Source: Saccoglossus kowalevskii
Taxonomy: Eukaryota > Hemichordata > Enteropneusta > Harrimaniidae
DNA length: 20,779 bases
Direction: 5' to 3'
Assembly (NCBI RefSeq): GCF_000003605.2
Contig: NW_003123418.1
Span: 95,468 to 116,246 of the forward strand
The position numbers were made by a program, and so were the translations under genes. The notes under the pieces were generated by a model. It did no database searches. It was not told the DNA's origin and was given only the letters and a program-made list of their open reading frames with translations. Shown here piece by piece: positions 3,157 through 20,519 of this stretch. Each line of letters begins with the position of its first letter. Positions within the stretch are counted from its first letter, which is position 1.

Positions 3157-3220
3157 GTAAGTCGACTCCGGGAAACGATTATTGGAATTTTTAAATTCAC
3201 TATTTCAGTATTTTGAACAT

Positions 3221-3354
3221 ATTTACTGGGTTTTAATTTTACTAATTCCCCAGAAAAACAATGAGTTATTGTGTTATTTTACATGTTCATATGAATTTAA
3301 TTTTTAGCGGATCTTACTCATCAATGAAAATAGCAAAATTAAAACCCCGTGAAT
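3221..3354. repeat. Inverted-repeat element, ACTGGGTTTTAA family, copy A
   Basis: The arm at 3221-3240 (ATTTACTGGGTTTTAATTTT) and the arm at 3335-3354 are reverse complements at 18 of 20 positions, around a ~94-base loop. The same arm sequence forms another inverted pair in SCYL2 intron 1 (10451-10520), so this is a dispersed palindromic family. Confidence 0.6.
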
Positions 3355-3359
3355 AATTC

Positions 3360-7435: not shown

Positions 7436-7605
7436 ATTAAAACTACCTCTCATCCAATCATAATCATGCATTAAAACTACCTCTCATCCAATCATAATCA
7501 TGCATTAAAATTACCTCTCATCCAATCATAATCATGCATTAAATCTACCTCTCATCCAATCATAATCATGCATTAAATCTACCTCTCATCCAATCATAAT
7601 CATGC
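7436..7605 (+). repeat. 34-bp minisatellite, five copies
   Basis: The unit ATTAAAACTACCTCTCATCC... starts at 7436, 7470, 7504, 7538 and 7572 with exact spacing of 34. Variation is limited to the ATTAAA(A/T)(C/T)TAC positions. There are no spacers, so it is not a CRISPR array. Confidence 0.95.
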
Positions 7606-7609
7606 ATTT

Positions 7610-9487: not shown

Positions 9488-9649
9488 ATGGATTTAGTGA
9501 ATAAAATCAAGAATACAGTGCAGAGCACAGTGGGTGGGCTTATAGGGATACCATTATCTAAAGATTTTGATATTAATAAACACCATGCAAGTGCTGGTCC
9601 CGGATATATCTGGAAAATTTATAGTGCAGTTAAGCGATCCACTAAAGAG
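9488..9649 (+). CDS. SCYL2: SCYL2 coding exon 1 (residues 1-54)
   Basis: The start MDLVNKIKNTVQSTVGGLIG aligns with the human N-terminus MESMLNKLKSTVTKVT, and the exon ends at KRSTKE|GTATGG. FDINKHHASAGPGYIWKIY matches the human FDVGRHIASGGNGLAWKIF, which corresponds to the glycine-rich loop. A frame running on past 9649 is intron. Confidence 0.95.
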
Positions 9650-12600
9650 GTATGGACAGGGTATATGTTTTCTGATTAGGGGTCAGTCACCTTTCTTGTT
9701 GTTAATTCGGTTGATGCATTGTTGTGATTGACTTCCGTGTTTGATGTATTGCTTTTTTGTATCATGATTCGCAGTAGATGATGGTGCATTTTATTATTGT
9801 TTACATTGATATGTTTGAAACCTTTAATGTGTCAAGTATTATGTGTACTGTAATAAAAGTAATAGCTACAGTATTCATATCATATTTGCATCAGAAATAA
9901 CTGCATGTCACTGAGCAAATCCTTTGATCTGGTTGTTTTCAACATCTTAGAGTGTTTTCAAGTTATCAATTTACACATAAGATTTTTGGTTTGACGATCA
10001 AAAATGTACTATATTATAAAATCACTATTTGTTGTGAAGCATTTTTAGTTAAGAGTTGTGAGTCTGAGTTGTAGACAGGACTCTCAAGTTGTTTACTTTA
10101 AACCCATTATTTTGAATTTAATAGGATAACTATTTTACTTATGAGGATGTTATCACTTTTGAATTTAATAGGATGACTATTTTACTCATGACGATGATGT
10201 TATCACGTTATCAAAGCAAACTTTATTTACTTTCTGAGTCAGTTGTATTTTGGGAGCAACTGAAGCTGAATTTTAACACCATGACAAGATTTATTGTCGT
10301 GAAGGCCATAAATAACTGTGCTTACAATGAGCATAACTTGCAAACGCATTGACTTTCAAATTTGATTTTTGGCCGTGTTACTTACAATTGAACTATTATT
10401 AAGTTTTACTGACAGTAAAACTTTAATGCTATTGCTCTACATATTACTGCATATTCACTGGGTTTTAATTTTATTCATTTCACTGACTGGAAAATGCACT
10501 AAATTAAAACCAGTGAATATGTAAAATTTAGCATAGAAAACACTATCTAAATGATAAAACTGTGAATTTAAAACCCACTGAATATGCCTGAATGGTAAAT
10601 CAGCGAAATTTAAACCCAGTGAAAATTAGTCATTTTACAGTATACCCTTGTATCTTTGCATATACATGTACATTGTATAACATATATATTTAAATAAATT
10701 TGAATTGTCTTGCAGGAAGTCTCAGTGTTTGTACTAGAAAAGAAACTATTGGAGAAGTATTCAAGAAGAGAACGAGAATTTTTGTTGGATATTTTCAAAA
10801 AAGGTGTGACTTAATTGACACGGTTACGCCATCCAAAACTTTTGACAGTACAACACCCCTTGGAAGAATCCAGGTTAGCAATTACAATATTCACCTTATA
10901 ATAATTAATTATTAATGTGATCAAGGCCCTGTTCATTTTTGTATACTGTAGAGTAAGTTTGTATTTGATGGGTCAGAGTTCATTGATAAAACAAGGAAAT
11001 AGACCATAACAGCCACAGGTTTGCATTTATATCTTTTATCAGTTCGAGTCCAACATGATTCATTGGAATTTGTTTTGAATTTTGAGTTCTCAAATTTACT
11101 TTAAATTCAAACATAATTTGCCCCATCTGCTGTACTTAAAAAATGGTGATGCAGTTACGTACCATTTGTTAACAAGGACATGAAATGACATACATATAAT
11201 TGAAATGGCGACGTGTCAACACTGGTAAACCAATCCTGGAATTAACTTGGTCTGCGTTATGTTTACAAGAGAATTAACAGTTAAACATACTCTGTTGTGA
11301 AATGTATGTGATGATAGGTTCTCACAGAGATGTGACTCATTTCACTGTCAAAAAGTAACCATGCATGTTTATCTGCACTGTAGTGTATTAAAATTGTTCA
11401 ACTCCAAACATGAATATTTAATGCAGCTGTGGATAGTCAACATTTTAGTTTTGAAATTCATGTATATAAAATTCAGAGAGATGACCTGTAATTATTTGTG
11501 TATACCTAGCAATGGGTTCATAATTGGTTTACTAAGGATACTGATTTCTAAAGGGACCATTGCTCTCTTACTACTTACTACACTACAAGTTTTTAAAACA
11601 TAGATGGCCTTATTTTGTTGTTGAAATAAATTGTTTCACAGGGAAACACTTTCACTGTCAATTTATCAACTGGGGCTTGAACTTGCAAGAAGATTATCAA
11701 GAAAATCAATCAGCTGTAGACATTTCAGACAAACAATTTAATCTGACAGTTCATCTTTATATTTAGATAATCTCTGGAATCACTGCTGTTTCTGATTTAT
11801 TTTAACTTGAACAAAAAAATTATAAACAATTTAGTTTTACACATTGTGTATAGCAAGTACTCTGGTGTGTGAATCAGAAGCGCCATGTAACCAATTATTG
11901 GGCTAATTCAAAGATATACAAATGCTTTCTCCAGGTTAATAACATACTAACTATTGAACATCTGCTCAATGTGTATTAGGTTGACTGTGATAAATGTTTA
12001 GGCATTACAAAATAATAATATTGAGATAGAAAGAAAAAAATAATCTCACTACAAATCTAATCAGATTACAATTGGATAATAATCTCAAATCATTATTATA
12101 TTCTAATCTTATCAAATAATCATTGATATTAATCTAAATAATCAAACCATTGCATACTAATCTCTCTAATCAAATCATCATTGATACTAATTTACTAATC
12201 TAATCAAATCATCATTAATACTAATTTTATTATACATTGTACTAATTCTCACAATACTAATCTAATCAAATCATGATTGGATACCAATCTTAATAATCTA
12301 TTCAAATCATCAATGGTTACTAATCATCTGCTCAAATTACCATTAGATTTTATTCTCTAATGAAATCATCATTGGATACAAATCCTAATAATCTATCCAA
12401 ATCATCATTGGATTCTTCTAATCTCTCTATGCTATTGGATACTTATACATCTATATCACTAATCTAATCTAATCAAATCATCATTGGATACTAATATCAT
12501 TAATCCAATGAAATCATGATTGGATACTAATCCTTGTATTTCTCATTTCAAAACAGGGAATATTTTGCTTTTGCCACAGAACCAGTTTTCGCAAGTTTAG

Positions 12601-15600
12601 GTAATGTTCTTGGTTGCCATGACAATCTTCCATCACCAGTACCAACTGAGGTCAAAGACTATGAGTTATATGATGTTGAAATTAAGTACGGTTTACAACA
12701 GGTATTATAGCATTATTTGAGGGTTTTGATGTCACGTTGTATTATAGCATTATTTGACAGTTTTGATGTCCGTTGTATTATAGCATTATTCAACGGTTTT
12801 GATGTTGTGCTGTATTATAGCATTATTTGACGGTTTTGGTGTCATGTTGTATTATTAGCAGAATGTGTCAGTAAAATCATCGTTTGAGTCTGTGTATTTG
12901 AAGCAAGTCATGTTATAATCACTATAATAGTTTTTCAAATATAAATCTAATCTACTACTAAAAATAGTAATGCAAATGAAATTGCTGATTTTCTTCTATG
13001 TTAGATTAAATTTTGATTATACCCAATTGTGAGGTGATACTTTGGTCTGTTTTATTAGTGACAAATCATTTTTTTTCTACCCTGTTCATATCAATTGTAT
13101 GAAATCTTGCTTTTGTTTTACCGGTACTCTGTATTTCTGTTGCCTAGGTGATTGAAGCATTGGCGTTTTTACACAATGATGTACATTTGATACATGGTAA
13201 TATTATTCCTGCAAATGTGATTATTAATAGCAATGGATCATGGAAATTATCAGGATTAGATTTCTGTATTCCTTCATCAACCAAACAACATGATAGTGGT
13301 CAGGTAAGTGATTCATTCAAATTTATATCAGTCAGAACAGAGAAATCATGGAGAGAAAATTGAAGAATTCTTTTTTTTATACTCAACTTGATTTGTTGGT
13401 GCAATGAAATTCTATGAAAACACAGGGTTCTTCTCAAGATTTTCCAGATATTTAATTCACAGTGTAGATGTCTGTATTTTGCCAATATATCATTGTGCAA
13501 ACACCATTTACTTTATTATACTATGATGGAATAAAATTATAGTTTCAGGTTTTCATTCCATTCAATGACTAAGTGATCTACCTCCATGAAGTCGTGTGAT
13601 TATTCACTTCGAACACTGGATCGATCAATTAATTGATCAAACTCAATGTACTTGCTTTATTTAGATGAGAATCTCATTAATTTTAATCATTAAATTAAAA
13701 TCAGATACATTTTTTCAACACCTAGCAATTAACATAGCAACTTAAAACAATAGCAGTTCTTTAAACATTTTTAGATAACAACATTTGTGTTCTTTGACAA
13801 TCTGTGTCTGTGTGAAAATTAATTTTACAAATTTTATAATTTGTACAATCTGCTCTTTTATTCTGTCTTAATTGGACCCTGGTATTTCTCTCTGTTGAGG
13901 AGACCTAATATATTTTTATCCTCACCACTCATTGGCAAGAAGTTGTTCTTTTGAGACATTTTTATTCAGCAACAGCGTAAATTTATTCCGACCAAGATCT
14001 TGGATATTCTTACTATGATTGTGGTCTTGCTGTTTATCTGATGACAACCGACTTAGCTCAGACAATTATCACCAATAAAGCTGTCTGAAGTCTTCATTAT
14101 TACTGAGAATAAATATCTGGTCTCTCCATCCAACTGCAAAAACATGTCAAATTCTTACTTTGGGTATCACACATTTGTAACATGTTACTATTCAAACATT
14201 GAAAAAATCGATCACAGTAAATCATTAAAAATTGTTGTGTGATGATTCACATACATGCAGGTCATTCATATTTAATATGTTTACGGAGAAATAAGAATGT
14301 GTTTCCAAGGAAACATGCAAAATAATCTAAAACAATTTTGCAGCATTTTATTGTAAACATATTATTCCATGGATTCAAAATTCTCCTATTTTTCATGGCA
14401 TTGTATGTAGCCCTTGTAACACTATATATCATACTATTTTTAGCGTAGGTCATCAAACAAAATGTTGAGATAGGATTGAATGTTTCTGCCATTCTGTAAT
14501 TGTAAACTATTGAAAAATCTATTTTTTATTTTAGAATTTTGAACATTACAGTATTAACCCAACCACTCTTGCTTGATTTCAAGGATTTTTGAGTATTTTT
14601 TTAATGGTAGCAGACTACCTTAATACGTGTGTGTTGTGATTGACTTTTAGGCTGTCTACAACTGCAAAGAATGGGATCCTAGTTTACCCGATATAGGGCA
14701 GCCAGTACTGAATTACCTTGCACCGGAGTACATCCGTACTGTCAGCTGTGATACTGCCAGTGATATGTACTCATTGGGTATGCTTATATATACATTATTT
14801 AACCACGGTAAACCATTGTTTGATTGCAATGCTAACTTAAAGACATACCAACGTAATTGTCAACAGGTGAGAGTCAGTTTACTCTGAAATATCGCATAGT
14901 TGTGGTTGAATAACATTATTGCAATATAACATAGTGAAGATTGATACATTCATACTAAAAATACAAAATTATATACTTGTTTTGACATTTTATTTTTAAA
15001 GCAATATCATGCAATTTACATGCTTTTATTCCCATTCCAGTTATCCTCATTAAATCTCACACTACTGAATTGTCTTCCGGAAGTATTACGAGATTATGTT
15101 AAAATGCTGTTTAGTATAACGCCAACCATTCGTCCAGATGCACACCAACTTACTAAGGTAAAGTATATTCTTAGCTATAACTTGTCATTCATTTTTAAAA
15201 TGCATGTAATATTAAACCAAAATGTGGTAATCAGATGTAAAAAGCACCTTTGCATAAAATAAATGGATTTCTTTCTGCCTTTGAGATGCATCTGAGAGTC
15301 TTTTTTAGTCACAGTCTGAAAACTATAGCAGTGCATTTAAATTCTGTTATTGCTTTCAGATATCTTTCTGTCACAGTCTGAAAACTATAGCAGTGCATTT
15401 AAATTCTGTTATTGCTTTCAGATATCTTTCTGTCACAGTCTGAAAACTATAGCAGTGCATTTAAATTCTGTCATTGCTTTCAGATATCTTTCTTTGACGA
15501 TGTTGGTGCCAAGACACTGGAGCATTTGGATTCTTTGTTTCAGTTAGATAATTTACAGAAATCTCAGTTCTTCAAAGGACTTCCTCAAATAATATCAAAG

Positions 15601-18600
15601 TTACCCAAGGTTAGTTGTAATTTCATTTCCTCATGGCAAGTTGTAAACATTGTAATTTCTTTCTCACAAGATATTGTAATTAATGTAGCCTTTTTCATAT
15701 TTCAGTATTGTTGTTTTGATATGGACAAGTTTGTCAGTGAAATAAACAGTGTTGTTTCTGTGGCCTGGTATGTCACATATAAAAAGGAAATCTACCGAGG
15801 ATGCTACTAAGCATGTATGCAATGCATTATGGGAAAGTCATTTCTATTGAATCTTATAAAACATTTATTATTATATTAGAAACTCTGTAAATTATTCAGA
15901 ATTTGCTGCAAATTTATAACAATATAAATGTAAACAAATGTAATGCACTTCCTCATTCTCTTGGCTATTATTACCCATCTAACTGCTGGACTGAATTCCC
16001 ATTCATGTTAAAAATAACCAAATTTTAACAAGAGCTTTATTAGATTGACTTCTGTATACGAATTCTTCAGCTCTTTAAAAAATCAATATTTGTATGTAAA
16101 AGTAGTCCTCCTGTTCTGGGTGTCTTTGATTGTAGCAATTTTTTACTAAATTGTCAGGTAAATGTGAATAACATATTGGCAAAAAACCCAAAGTTACATT
16201 AATTACCAATCATATGCCATAATACATACAAGAGACATTGAACTTAGTCTATAACATGTGTTTTGATTGGTTACCTATTTTCATGGAAGGGTAACAGGTA
16301 TGTGCATCATTGTAATAACTGTCTCATGCAAATTGTACAACCGTACCAAATTCATTGTCTGCCCTTTGCCTAGTAACTAATATGGTACGCAGACTCTTCA
16401 ATATCATACTAGATAATCAAAAGATAACATTGCTACATTAAAACACCGACAAGGAAGGCACTTCACTGATCAAACTACTGAACACCTGTGAACTACTGGG
16501 GTAATACAACTATCATGTTTCAGTCCAACTTTGGTTATACCTATTTTGGGACAAAATGAATCATGCATGTTTTGACCTGGTCATAAATTATTGTTATTAT
16601 TTATTCAGCCACTAAAATTCAAAGCAATACAAATATACATCACTGATAAAAGCAAGTCACAATTACTCATACAAATGAAAGTAGAAGGGAGGGCCAGGGT
16701 ACATAACAACTACAGTCACCATAGCTCGGAAGACAGTTCATCCTTCTCTTTCACTAACAAAACACATAACATGGTACAAAAATAAAAACACAAATATTAG
16801 GTGACCAGATATTTGCATAGACTAAAAGAAAAAGTCTTTGATATTGTTTGTTCTGTTGTTTTAAACTGCTGAGGGATTCACTTTTATTGACAGTGATCAA
16901 ACCACTTTCTGACTGGTTGATGTCTGCCCTCTATGTTGAGATTTTGTAACAAATTATCATAAATTTTTTTTTGCAGAGAGTGGTTCTTCAGCGAGTTCTA
17001 CCATGTCTATTTAAAGAGTTTTATAATAGTGAAATGATTCCATTTGTCTTGCCCAATGTATTACTGATTGCAGAGTCTTGTACACAGAAGGAGTACACCA
17101 CTATTATATTCCCTCATTTAAAACCAATATTTAAATTGCAAGAACCTATCCAGGTAAATAAATGTTATCTCGAGGATATCGAAATGTATGTACAAAGGCA
17201 GTACTGTGATCAAATCAACCTATGGGTGGTGGAGGTCTATGCACTATGCATCTTTTCTCTGCTTGGGTCAGACTTTTATTATCCCTTGTTTAGCGAACCC
17301 GCCAAATAAACAGGAGCCGAAAATGTTATAATAAAATTTTATTTCAGCACACCCGCTGACTTGTGGGTGCAAAAATTGCTAACAAAATTATTTTTATTAT
17401 CATTTTTTTTCCGCCCGCCGCCTAACATATCCATATTCATGGGAGTATCATGATCAAAATACCGAAGTCTCGCACAGATCTATACTTTATGCGCGTTGGT
17501 TGACAGTGAATCTCGGGTCTTGACCTCCCTGCATGCTGCTTAAGACTACTAGGCGAACATGGCGACCACGCCATGAAACTCTGTCGTCAAAAACCGAGAA
17601 ATCCCTCATTAACGCTGAAAATGGTGCCACAATTGGCGACATTGCCAACCAGGTTATACATCTAATAGAAAAAAAAAGAAATAATTTTATTTTTTTTCCG
17701 CCCTCATCAAAAAAATTGACTTATAAAAACTCGAGAAACAAGGAATAAAAAAAGTCTGGCCTTGTAGTAATAGACTGAAACCAAAAATGTTATGTGCTGT
17801 ATGAACAAATATTATATCAATAGCCTGGAACAAGTCAATGCTGGTGATGTAGTTTATCTGGTATAAGGGGAAATCCAAGCATTGTATGAGTGCAGATATG
17901 CTTTAGAACAAATTCTGGTACAGCTTTTTATGGAATGGCAAATTCCGTTGTTTTCAGTGCTAGATCAACTAATTTGTCCTGTTATCATGATATTGGAGAT
18001 TGTTTCTGTACTACTAGTACTAGTTTATATAGTTTGATTTGATTCACCACGTAGTATGAATATCCAGCTTCGCATCTTTAATACCCAACTTGATAATGAC
18101 TGTATTTATATTTGGATAGAGTGGACTGTTTTAGGGAGTGTTGTCAGTGTTCACAGCCATTTTATTTGTGCAATCAGATTACCGGTACTTTCCCCCTCTA
18201 GTTTTAAATTGTTGTGAATTTGTGGCTTTAATGTAAATTATATTATATTTTATTATGAAATTGGACAGATTTTCCTTTTTTATATTATTATTATTATTAT
18301 TTTATTTCCATTTCTCTAAAGAAATATACCCCACTAACCTGGGGGAACAGGTTACAATGCGAAAGTTACAGGCGTGACTTTAATCGCCTCAATAAAATAA
18401 AGTATTATATATATATATATATATATACACATACACACACACATATACAACTCATCTATTGGAGGACTCACACTAACAAATCGTATCTAATCTGAAAAGC
18501 TGTGTATACAAATCTTGCAATAATTTGGATGATTTCATGGTTATCCTGAGAAAAAATATATGTAAGTTTACGGATAGGCGAAAGGAACTCGAATTGTGGT

Positions 18601-20519
18601 TCAATGCGGTTAATTCGATCAAAAAGCGGTTTTTGAATATGGTATATGTTTAACTAAGCTTATTTTGTTGCAGATTTTACTGATATTTTTGCATAAAATG
18701 GATTTACTTCTGAGTAAGACTCCATCAGATGATATCAAACATCATGTACTCCCTATGGTATACAAAGCATTGGAAACGCCTTCACCTCAGATACAGGTAT
18801 TGCTACCTATTCTAATAAATGTGTGATTACCCTGTTGGTCAAAAATAAAAATACGGCAGAGTTTATTATTTTTTCTCAGATATAAATATAAAATTATTTA
18901 ATTCTACACACGATGCAATTATTAAGAGATTATAAACAGTATGTTCAGTTATTTGGTAGTGGATAGAAGACCTCTCTGTGGAAAATTAGTATATTTAGAA
19001 TTTACCTGCTTTGTAGTGTGCGTTCTAGATTTTGTGTTTCAATTCCAGGGATGAAACACACTCCATAGAATATGCGCGTATATAGGCGAGGCGCATGACA
19101 AAATCAAAAATTCTAATATATATCAACGATCTAGCAGTAATACCAACCATGCACTATTTCTGCACATAAACAAAGCTAAAAAAGTGAAAAATACGTTGTT
19201 TCTAGTTGTGATTTTTGCATTTATGTTGATTTACCAAACTGATGACAGGCCTGGCAAATGAAAGCTACAGACATGTTGAAGATGTCACATGATTGATTCA
19301 ACGCTATTCTACAATCAATGCGCATGTTTCTCATAGAAAGTTTTAGCAATAATAATTTGCATTAGTACTTGTACCAGATTTCCTTGCTTTGATCAGTTGA
19401 TCATACACCCTCATTCTCTATGAACAGTGTTCACACTCCTGAAATTCAAGCCAGTTTATTCAGTTTTTGGTCTTCTAGTGCTAGATATAAGACCTTGCTT
19501 CAGCCAATCAGATGGCTGGATTCAAGCTAACCATGAAGTATATTTTGTCACTTTCAGGAATTGTGTTTGTCAATTATTCCAACCTTTGCTTCGATGATTG
19601 AATACTCATCCATGAAACACTCAATTATACCAAGAATTAAGACACTCTGTCTACGCACAGATTTACTGTCAGTAAGTATCATTAAAAATGTAATTCGGGT
19701 ATACATTTTGGTTTATAATTAAGGTGGTGTGTCTACTTATAGTTATCATTAGCTTGTGGACTCCACTATGCATTGGTATAGAATTTAAAACCACTGTGTT
19801 TAATGTCAATTCAAGTCAAGCATTTGTTTGTGTTCATAAATTTCATTCTTTGAAATATGTTAGTTTGTGGTTCCTATTATTACTTGAAATTTACTTGTAT
19901 TTTCTAAATATAGGTGCGTGTGAACTGTTTAATATGCATTGGTAAACTATTAGAATACATGGATAAATGGTACGTTTTAGATGAAATTCTGCCGTTACTA
20001 CAAGAGATTCCGTCTCGAGAACCTGCTGTACTCATGGCTATGTTAGGTAAGTCCTCATTTTACAGAGTAGTAAATTGTTACTAGTTGGCTGGCTATCCTG
20101 TCCCTAGGTACCAAGTTTGGCCATATGATAGATGTATGTGTGTCTGGCCATGCTATTGACAAACCATTCCTTGTGTGCTGGTTTTAAGGATGCATACTAA
20201 ATATACGAAAAATTTACTACAAATTCTTTTCCTTAATAAATTATACCCTACATTGTTTCCATGGAAACAGTAACTTTGTAATTTCTACATACTGTATAAA
20301 AAACATTTATTTAGGTTTATGAATTTGCCATTGGAAAAAACGGAAAGTTCCATCATCATATTCTGTTTGGTCAATCTTAATGGGATATTGTTTGTTGTAG
20401 GTATTTACAAGACTTCATTAGATCACAAGAAGCTTGGAATAACTAAAGAAATTCTTGCAACCAAAGTATTACCATTCCTATTTCCACTCTGCATTGATAA
20501 TAATCTTAATCTTAACCAG
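9488..20519 (+). CDS. SCYL2: SCYL2 (SCY1-like pseudokinase 2/CVAK104), exons 1-12, 3' end outside window
   Basis: SCYL2 is a pseudokinase of clathrin-coated vesicles that acts in trafficking between trans-Golgi, endosomes and plasma membrane. Twelve exons join to exactly 582 codons: 9488-9649, 10716-10873, 12557-12701, 13148-13303, 14651-14866, 15041-15157, 15484-15609, 16977-17153, 18674-18796, 19558-19671, 19914-20046, 20401-20519. All introns are GT-AG and the frame holds at every junction. Kinase hallmarks are degenerate as in the family: Phe59 in place of the VAIK Lys, H171-G-N173 for HRD, G191-L-D193 for DFG, while APE (231-233) and SDMYSLG remain. Residues from about 360 on are HEAT repeats. 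Human SCYL2 aligns end to end up to NLNLNQ; the clathrin/adaptor-binding C-terminus is missing because the window ends. Exon 2 has an in-frame TAA at codon 87, so this copy may be a null allele, a young pseudogene or a sequence error. Confidence 0.95.
10111..10204 (+). repeat. 47-bp tandem duplication
   Basis: TTTGAATTTAATAGGAT starts at 10111 and 10158. The copies continue (A/G)ACTATTTTACT(T/C)ATGA and both end near GATGTTATCAC, the second with a 3-base insertion. Confidence 0.85.
10451..10627. repeat. Inverted-repeat cluster, ACTGGGTTTTAA family, copy B
   Basis: The arm ATATTCACTGGGTTTTAATT (10451-10470) pairs with AAATTAAAACCAGTGAATAT (10501-10520), one base shorter. Two further half-arms, AAAACCCACTGAATATG (about 10570-10586) and AAACCCAGTGAAAAT (about 10613-10627), lie downstream, ahead of ATTTTACAGTA. 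It is related to copy A at 3221-3354. Confidence 0.65.
10716..10873 (+). CDS. SCYL2: SCYL2 coding exon 2 with in-frame TAA (residues 55-106 and part of 107)
   Basis: It opens EVSVFVLEKKLLEKYSRRER, then a stretch ending FKKGVT, then a stop TAA at 10812-10814, then LTRLRHPKLLTVQHPLEES. Human SCYL2 has GVQQLTRLRHPRLL here, so the stop stands at a Gln, one C-to-T change from CAA. The acceptor TTGCAG and donor CAG|GTTAGC are normal. Skipping the exon (158 nt) would break the frame, and so would the cryptic GT at 10804, so splicing cannot easily remove the stop. The exon covers the beta-3 strand, where Phe59 replaces the catalytic Lys. Confidence 0.93.
10874..12556 (+). other. SCYL2 intron 2
   Basis: GTTAGC...AAACAG. 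Positions 10920-12040 show no exon or clear repeat; the last 500 bases are a degenerate TAATC-rich array. Confidence 0.9.
12050..12533 (+). repeat. Degenerate ~35-45-bp tandem array rich in TACTAAT
   Basis: About a dozen diverged copies of a unit like CTAATCAAATCATCATTGGA plus TACTAAT. TACTAAT itself occurs nine times. The array ends about 24 bases before the exon 3 acceptor (12556). Confidence 0.85.
12557..12701 (+). CDS. SCYL2: SCYL2 coding exon 3 (residues 107-155)
   Basis: The first G completes the split Arg codon. The exon reads EYFAFATEPVFASLGNVLGC, then HDNLPSPVPTEVKDYELYDV, then EIKYGLQQ. Human has LAFCTEPVFASLANVLG and NLPSPISPDIKDYKLYDVE. This is the kinase hinge and alpha-D area. 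Confidence 0.96.
12702..12861 (+). repeat. 37-bp minisatellite beginning at the exon 3 splice donor
   Basis: GTATTATAGCATTATT starts at 12702, 12739, 12775 and 12812, and a broken copy (GTATTATTAGC) starts at 12849. The first copy begins exactly at the intron's GT. Only that copy is preceded by CAG; the others follow CGTT, GTT or GCT. Confidence 0.93.
12702..13147 (+). other. SCYL2 intron 3
   Basis: GTATTA...GCCTAG. The first 160 bases are the 37-bp minisatellite; the rest is AT-rich and featureless. Confidence 0.9.
13148..13303 (+). CDS. SCYL2: SCYL2 coding exon 4 (residues 156-207)
   Basis: VIEALAFLHNDVHLIHGNII carries H171-G-N173 where active kinases have HRD. NGSWKLSGLDFC has G191-L-D193 at the DFG position. 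The same losses occur in human (VHGN, GFD). Donor CAG|GTAAGT. Confidence 0.96.
13304..14650 (+). other. SCYL2 intron 4
   Basis: GTAAGT...TTTTAG. It includes a perfect 16-bp palindrome, GATCAATTAATTGATC (13623-13638), and a CAGACA/TGTCTG stem around an AATAAA near 14059-14088 that could be a retroelement tail. No other gene seen. Confidence 0.88.
14651..14866 (+). CDS. SCYL2: SCYL2 coding exon 5 (residues 208-279)
   Basis: CKEWDPSLPDIGQPVLNYLA continues as PEYI, giving the intact APE motif (231-233), followed by SCDTASDMYSLGMLIYTLFN, the alpha-F region with SDMYSLG. Donor CAG|GTGAGA. Confidence 0.96.
14867..15040 (+). other. SCYL2 intron 5
   Basis: Short intron of 174 bases, GTGAGA...TTCCAG, AT-rich, no repeats. 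Confidence 0.9.
15041..15157 (+). CDS. SCYL2: SCYL2 coding exon 6 (residues 280-318)
   Basis: LSSLNLTLLNCLPEVLRDYV, then KMLFSITPTIRPDAHQLTK. Human has IPEEVREHVKLLLNVTPTVR then PDADQMTK. This is the end of the kinase fold with the conserved RPD. Donor AAG|GTAAAG. Confidence 0.95.
15158..15483 (+). other. SCYL2 intron 6
   Basis: GTAAAG...TTTCAG. Its last 176 bases are copies of a 62-bp repeat that also reaches into exon 7. Confidence 0.9.
15308..15493 (+). repeat. 62-bp tandem triplication spanning the exon 7 acceptor
   Basis: The units start at 15308, 15370 and 15432 with GTCACAGTCTGAAAACTATA and each ends TTGCTTTCAGATATCTTTCT. Each therefore contains a full 3' splice site plus ten exon bases. 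AG falls at 15359, 15421 and 15483. The copies differ by only one base (TTATTGC versus TCATTGC in the third). Confidence 0.96.
15484..15609 (+). CDS. SCYL2: SCYL2 coding exon 7 (residues 319-360)
   Basis: ISFFDDVGAKTLEHLDSLFQ, then LDNLQKSQFFKGLPQ, near-identical to human IPFFDDVGAVTLQYFDTLFQ. Only the third of three tandem acceptors keeps the frame: the upstream ones add 62 or 124 bases and lead to stops. Donor AAG|GTTAGT. Confidence 0.96.
15610..16976 (+). other. SCYL2 intron 7
   Basis: GTTAGT...TTGCAG, with a long T-run before the acceptor (16962-16972). No repeat or other gene recognised. Confidence 0.9.
16977..17153 (+). CDS. SCYL2: SCYL2 coding exon 8 (residues 361-419)
   Basis: RVVLQRVLPCLFKEFYNSEM, then IPFVLPNVLLIAESCTQKEY, then KLQEPIQ. 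Human has VIVQRILPCL and VPFVLPNVLLIAEECTKEEY. First HEAT-repeat helices. Donor CAG|GTAAAT; the open frame that continues to 17309 is intron. Confidence 0.96.
17320..17730. mobile_element. Unidentified insertion-like block in intron 8
   Basis: CpG content is far above the surrounding intron (for example 17411-17421 CCGCCCGCCGC and 17558-17575 ATGGCGACCACGCC). Two copies of a T-run followed by CCGCCC (17402-17416 and 17690-17703) bracket about 290 bases. CACCC/GGGTG (17350-17354 and 17364-17368) can pair. Inside, one frame reads NAENGATIGDIANQVIHLIE and then meets a donor-like CAG|GTTATA at 17651. It could be a transposon 5' end, a captured exon or neither. Confidence 0.35.
18335..18404 (+). 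mobile_element. Possible non-LTR retroelement 3' end with two stem-loops
   Basis: TAACCTG-GGGGAA-CAGGTTA (18335-18354) and AGGCG...CGCCT (18370-18389) are followed at once by AATAAAATAAAG and a TA microsatellite. Hairpins, AATAAA and a simple-sequence tail in this order are common at LINE-type 3' ends. No reverse transcriptase remnant seen. Confidence 0.4.
18405..18450 (+). repeat. (TA)n/(CA)n microsatellite
   Basis: About eleven TA units grading into CA units. Confidence 0.93.
18674..18796 (+). CDS. SCYL2: SCYL2 coding exon 9 (residues 420-460)
   Basis: ILLIFLHKMDLLLSKTPSDD, then VLPMVYKALETPSPQIQ. Human has ILLIFLQKMDLLLTKTPPDE and VLPMVYRALEAPSIQIQ. HEAT region. Donor CAG|GTATTG. Confidence 0.96.
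18797..19557 (+). other. SCYL2 intron 9
   Basis: GTATTG...TTTCAG, AT-rich. A small CpG patch at 19072-19096 (GCGCGTATATAGGCGAGGCG) is the only feature noticed. Confidence 0.9.
19558..19671 (+). CDS. SCYL2: SCYL2 coding exon 10 (residues 461-498)
   Basis: ELCLSIIPTFASMIEYSSMK, then HSIIPRIKTLCLRTDLLS. Human has ELCLNIIPTFANLIDYPSMK. HEAT region. Donor TCA|GTAAGT. Confidence 0.96.
19672..19913 (+). other. SCYL2 intron 10
   Basis: 242 bases, GTAAGT...ATATAG. A frame at 19724-19945 crosses into the exon in the wrong frame and is not coding. Confidence 0.9.
19914..20046 (+). CDS. SCYL2: SCYL2 coding exon 11 (residues 499-542 and part of 543)
   Basis: VRVNCLICIGKLLEYMDKWY, then VLDEILPLLQEIPSREPAVL. 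Human has VRVNSLVCLGKILEYLDKWF. Ends with the split Gly codon G|GT. Donor GTAAGT. Confidence 0.96.
20047..20400 (+). other. SCYL2 intron 11
   Basis: GTAAGT...TTGTAG, 354 bases, no repeat recognised. Confidence 0.9.
20401..20519 (+). CDS. SCYL2: SCYL2 coding exon 12 (residues 543-582), last in window
   Basis: IYKTSLDHKKLGITKEILAT, then KVLPFLFPLCIDNNLNLNQ. Human has HKKLGITKEQLAGKVLPHLI and NNLNLNQ. Donor CAG|GTAGGT. The following coding exons (rest of the HEAT region and C-terminal tail) lie right of the window. Confidence 0.95.

Follow-up and report, generated by a model that had tools for sequence, protein, structure and literature searches.

A single in-frame TAA codon in an otherwise intact SCYL2-like gene of the hemichordate Saccoglossus kowalevskii

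The SCYL2-like gene and neighbouring features

The window, meaning the whole 20,779-nucleotide stretch of Saccoglossus kowalevskii DNA analysed here, carries a 12-exon SCYL2-like gene on the + strand at 9488–20519. Exon 1 starts at an ATG (9488–9649) and is followed by exon 2, which holds a TAA codon (10716–10873), exon 3 (12557–12701), exon 4 (13148–13303), exon 5 (14651–14866), exon 6 (15041–15157), exon 7 (15484–15609), exon 8 (16977–17153), exon 9 (18674–18796), exon 10 (19558–19671), exon 11 (19914–20046), and exon 12 (20401–20519). Spliced together, these give a reading of 1746 nt, or 582 codons, in which the phases join at every junction. The 3' limit of the model is the end of exon 12 at 20519 and the gene continues past the window, so its intactness is described for codons 1–582. 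All 11 introns, ranging from 174 to 1683 nt, begin with GT and end with AG. The frame used is free of stops in 11 of the 12 exons and contains one stop in exon 2. Among the frames that are not used, taken from the first base of each exon, 20 of 24 hold at least two stops, with exons not used in the first frame counted by their own used frame and the third frame of exon 3 holding one stop. As most unused frames contain several stops, the open frame is not due to chance. Exon 2 also has one further stop-free frame, missing from the initial annotation, which bears no likeness to the SCYL family.

With an X placed at the stop, the protein matches Pfam PF00069 at residues 37–322 (E 1.6e-18; 67.5 bits, cut-off 31.7). 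Exon 4 encodes HGN (codons 171–173) in place of the kinase HRD and GLD (codons 191–193) in place of DFG, each aligning opposite the corresponding motif of Aurora A. The PDB matches listed (60 of 150) are named as Aurora A, which we take to be the meaning of serine/threonine-protein kinase 6 in these names. The predicted kinase fold with degenerate motifs fits the SCYL pseudokinases. We assume that the gene is SCYL2 in particular, rather than SCYL1 or SCYL3, and that the region following the kinase domain resembles human SCYL2. Pfam gives no HEAT match after the kinase domain at E 0.01, NCBIfam matches four kinase families, all far below their cut-offs, and a scan with Rfam returned no match.

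Several repeats accompany the gene. A 62-bp unit is present three times at 15308–15493 (99% matches in Tandem Repeats Finder), and the other two copies match the first at 97% and 93% over 72 nt. The exon 7 acceptor (TTGCTTTCAG/ATATCTTTC) occurs in all three, giving three near-identical acceptors with exon starts at 15360, 15422, and 15484. Exon 7 normally begins at codon 319 and only the last of these starts keeps the frame, as those at 15360 and 15422 add 124 and 62 nt and run into stops at codons 346 and 360, respectively. Intron 1 contains a foldback repeat (CATATTCACTGGGTTTTAATTT and its complement) at 10449–10626, which resembles a small element of the foldback or MITE type, and related pieces with 75–90% identity lie upstream at 3210–3355. 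A minisatellite at 7436–7608 consists of 5.1 copies of a 34-bp unit with 97% matches, and positions 1–286 contain 1.9 copies of a 150-bp unit with 85% matches. On the - strand, 1283–1474 is an exon encoding a RING finger, with the TRAF RING model among its Pfam matches (27.1 bits, cut-off 26.9). This exon resembles the initial coding exon of a TRAF6-like gene, TRAF6 being the name we presume for it.

The TAA codon and the age of any decay

The TAA occupies codon 87 in exon 2 (10812–10814, + strand), where the peptide reads ...FKKGVT-stop-LTRLRHPKLLTVQHPLEESR. In the alignment with Aurora A it sits directly before the LRHP of the kinase N-lobe, a position that we take to be where helix C ends. 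After the stop, 59 nt of exon 2 remain, and 10 splice junctions follow within the window, the exon 2/3 junction included. An in-frame TAA inside an otherwise intact gene, with the eleven other exons, the splice sites, and the 582-codon frame preserved, was reported in the initial annotation and is confirmed for the part of the gene within the window; the TAA is the sole stop in 582 codons, none of the 11 other exons contains one, and the introns are GT–AG in 11 of 11 cases. A lone stop in a well-kept gene is a true feature of the given sequence, whether it belongs to the animal or to the assembly. Its origin by one C-to-T change from CAA is plausible. Several other codons are also one step from TAA, and the preceding ACT (Thr) likewise differs from the human residue quoted in the initial annotation; we presume that the exon 2 region matches this quoted human SCYL2 sequence. 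A pattern search for relatives gave 2 matches in viral_contigs and 18 in genome_contigs, neither of which holds animal genomes, and 0 were confirmed.

The reading offers 36 transitions and 253 transversions that would create a stop, so that at kappa 2 each unit of neutral divergence should bring ~81 nonsense changes. Taken by itself, the one stop corresponds to d = 0.012 (1.2%), and to at most 0.058 (5.8%). A further 116 frameshifts (assuming 0.1 indels per substitution, two thirds of them out of frame) and 44 splice-dinucleotide lesions are expected, giving ~242 in total with the nonsense changes. A single lesion of any type then corresponds to d ~0.004 (0.4%) and at most ~0.02 (2%), with the assumed indel rate included. 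This neutral arithmetic supports the earlier view that any decay must be recent: if there is decay, it is young. Divergence of this order occurs between alleles in diverse species. An isolated base error requires no decay at all.

Competing explanations of the stop

A null allele, a sequence error, a young pseudogene, and readthrough had been proposed as explanations, which is a reasonable list. A base error in the assembly at 10812–10814, with the gene of the animal intact, is the strongest competitor of a null allele and is possible, if on the unlikely side. It agrees with the intact state of the rest of the 582 codons, as an isolated error predicts, and with the harm that loss of SCYL2 causes in mammals (PMC11988787). 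It agrees less well with the difference itself, which is of the substitution type rather than a homopolymer indel and has no CG at 10811–10815. Errors arise more commonly as homopolymer indels or at methylated CpG.

It is improbable that the gene is a young pseudogene, one of a recently duplicated pair of loci whose other member is intact elsewhere. The several independent lesions expected of a pseudogene are absent, a single lesion being present across 582 codons and 11 introns, although a very young pseudogene need not show several and so few lesions do fit a young copy. The introns are kept, and therefore any duplicate would be a DNA-level one. The near-identical 62-bp triplication at the exon 7 acceptor is a sign of some young change at the locus, but a second copy is absent within the window. 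The next best matches to exon 2 across the window, introns included, have E values of 1.2 (peptide) and 1.3 (DNA), and the next best match to the whole protein has an E value of 0.13.

Bypass of the stop in RNA would require that 10804–10848 is spliced out or that exons 2 and 3 are skipped, either of which gives an open frame. It had been claimed that exon skipping or the donor at 10804 breaks the frame and cannot rescue it. This holds for skipping exon 2 alone (158 nt) and for splicing from 10803 to exon 3 (a loss of 70 nt), both of which are out of frame, but it does not hold in general, as excising 10804–10848 or 10804–10866, or skipping exons 2 and 3 together, keeps the frame free of stops. 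The survey of such routes covered GT...AG sites and annotated exons. Within exon 2, eight GT before the stop and two AG after it, at least 21 nt apart, form 16 pairs, of which two keep the frame. These are 10804–10848 on the + strand (45 nt, donor score 7.0, acceptor score -1.1), whose hypothetical excision would leave 567 open codons, and 10804–10866 (63 nt, acceptor score -7.0), which would leave 561. Skips that start with exon 2 keep the frame in 9 of 11 cases, the skip reaching exon 12 being cut by the window, and the smallest of them, the loss of exons 2 and 3 (303 nt), retains 481 open codons. Joining exon 3 to a donor after 10726, 10756, or 10783 is also in frame, with 533, 543, and 552 open codons, respectively, but these donors are weak (scores of -2.8, 2.2, and -7.3). 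Splicing exon 1 to an alternative acceptor beyond the stop (133 and 151 nt) is out of frame, and no cryptic acceptor in intron 2 extends exon 3 both in frame and open.

Although both main routes keep an open frame, bypass by splicing is possible but unlikely, and we consider its probability very low. The donor after 10803 is equalled by 34 of the window's 1145 + strand GT, the real donors among them, but scores below 10 of the gene's own 11 donors (5.2–13.8). The acceptor at 10848 is weaker by far, with -1.1 against 7.9–15.7 for the 11 real acceptors and 278 of the 964 AG in the window scoring as well, in a comparison that flatters the real sites, since those 11 introns served to train the matrix. 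The excised 45 nt would be roughly one quarter as long as the shortest intron (174 nt) and would remove residues adjoining LRHP in the kinase N-lobe of the Aurora A alignment, while skipping exons 2 and 3 would remove 101 codons of the kinase domain. Exitrons are without internal stops (PMC10985678); the 10804–10848 stretch resembles them in its 45 nt length and GT–AG borders, but its internal TAA sets it outside the class overall. More doubtful still is a TAA fixed in the species, with the gene working through removal of 10804–10848 or of exons 2 and 3 as a pseudokinase with a trimmed N-lobe. If true, a new intron or a shortened isoform would have been born around a nonsense mutation.

Translational readthrough, or an altered meaning of TAA, we regard as the least credible of these explanations. 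The frame is open on both sides of the TAA, and the exon 2 RNA (10716–10873) has a moderately better fold than its shuffles (z -2.31, matched by 8 of 200), in which a hairpin loop begins with the TAA. When the end of intron 1 is added to exon 2, the fold is even more stable (z -4.01, with 0 of 100 shuffles as good), helped by the foldback repeat of intron 1. Known readthrough structures lie after the stop, and the exon 2 fold is given little weight for this reason; the 62 nt that start at the stop are no more stably folded than their shuffles (z 0.74, with 148 of 200 doing as well). The stop context, ACT TAA TTG, contains to our knowledge none of the leaky readthrough forms, which counts against this explanation. 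Glutamine is encoded by CAA or CAG 23 times in the 582-codon reading, with TAA occurring once and TAG not at all. Such counts have a P of 0.002 if TAA and TAG served 30% of glutamines, 0.03 at 20%, and 0.29 at 10%, and so argue against common reassignment only. Re-initiation at the next Met codons (246, 251, and 301) would lose most of the kinase domain, and A-to-I editing is set aside on reasoning alone, as UAA cannot thereby become a glutamine codon.

A probable nonsense null allele and its counterparts in human SCYL2

With somewhat better than even confidence, we favour the reading that the assembled haplotype carries a nonsense null allele of an otherwise working SCYL2 orthologue, most likely heterozygous in the sequenced animal. 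This reading is preferred because there is one lesion only, with no stop in the 11 other exons, GT–AG borders in all 11 introns, and the frame kept, because the implied divergence is of a size that occurs between alleles in diverse species, and because the window holds neither a second exon 2 nor a second gene copy. Against it, an assembly error fits the sequence equally well, and the DNA sequence alone cannot tell the two apart. On the null allele reading, a single-base nonsense substitution in the assembled haplotype would have created the TAA at codon 87. By the usual rule, a stop upstream of splice junctions leads to nonsense-mediated decay; with 59 nt of exon 2 and 10 junctions still to come after the TAA, the mRNA would probably be a target. 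The TAA allele would then make no SCYL2, and the other allele would supply its function.

A real allele of this kind would be one more recessive null frozen into a reference sequence, where it can mislead gene annotation. That an animal carries a recessive null is an ordinary kind of finding, and our literature search found no source on nonsense-allele rates or load in such animals, marine or other. If the TAA were instead fixed in the species, it would mean the loss or in-frame rescue of SCYL2, which is severe when lost in mammals, and would be worth following; nothing in the sequence points that way.

SCYL2 (SCY1-like pseudokinase 2, CVAK104), a pseudokinase of vesicle trafficking, has the same kinase-like domain, with HGN and GLD replacing HRD and DFG. 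The present gene differs in its one in-frame TAA at codon 87, and the C-terminal part, which in SCYL2 binds clathrin and adaptors, lies beyond the window. In humans, loss of both copies of SCYL2 causes severe disease, some patients dying early, and most knockout mice die postnatally (PMC11988787). Frameshifts and early stops, p.(Arg36Ter) among them, are listed there with both parents heterozygous (PMC11988787). A heterozygous null in this gene would thus be biologically ordinary, as heterozygous human parents carry like alleles. While the human nulls were found by sequencing patients and parents and the TAA here is known from one assembled sequence, the SCYL2 nulls of arthrogryposis multiplex congenita 4 are likewise early N-terminal stops or frameshifts with heterozygous carriers (PMC11988787).
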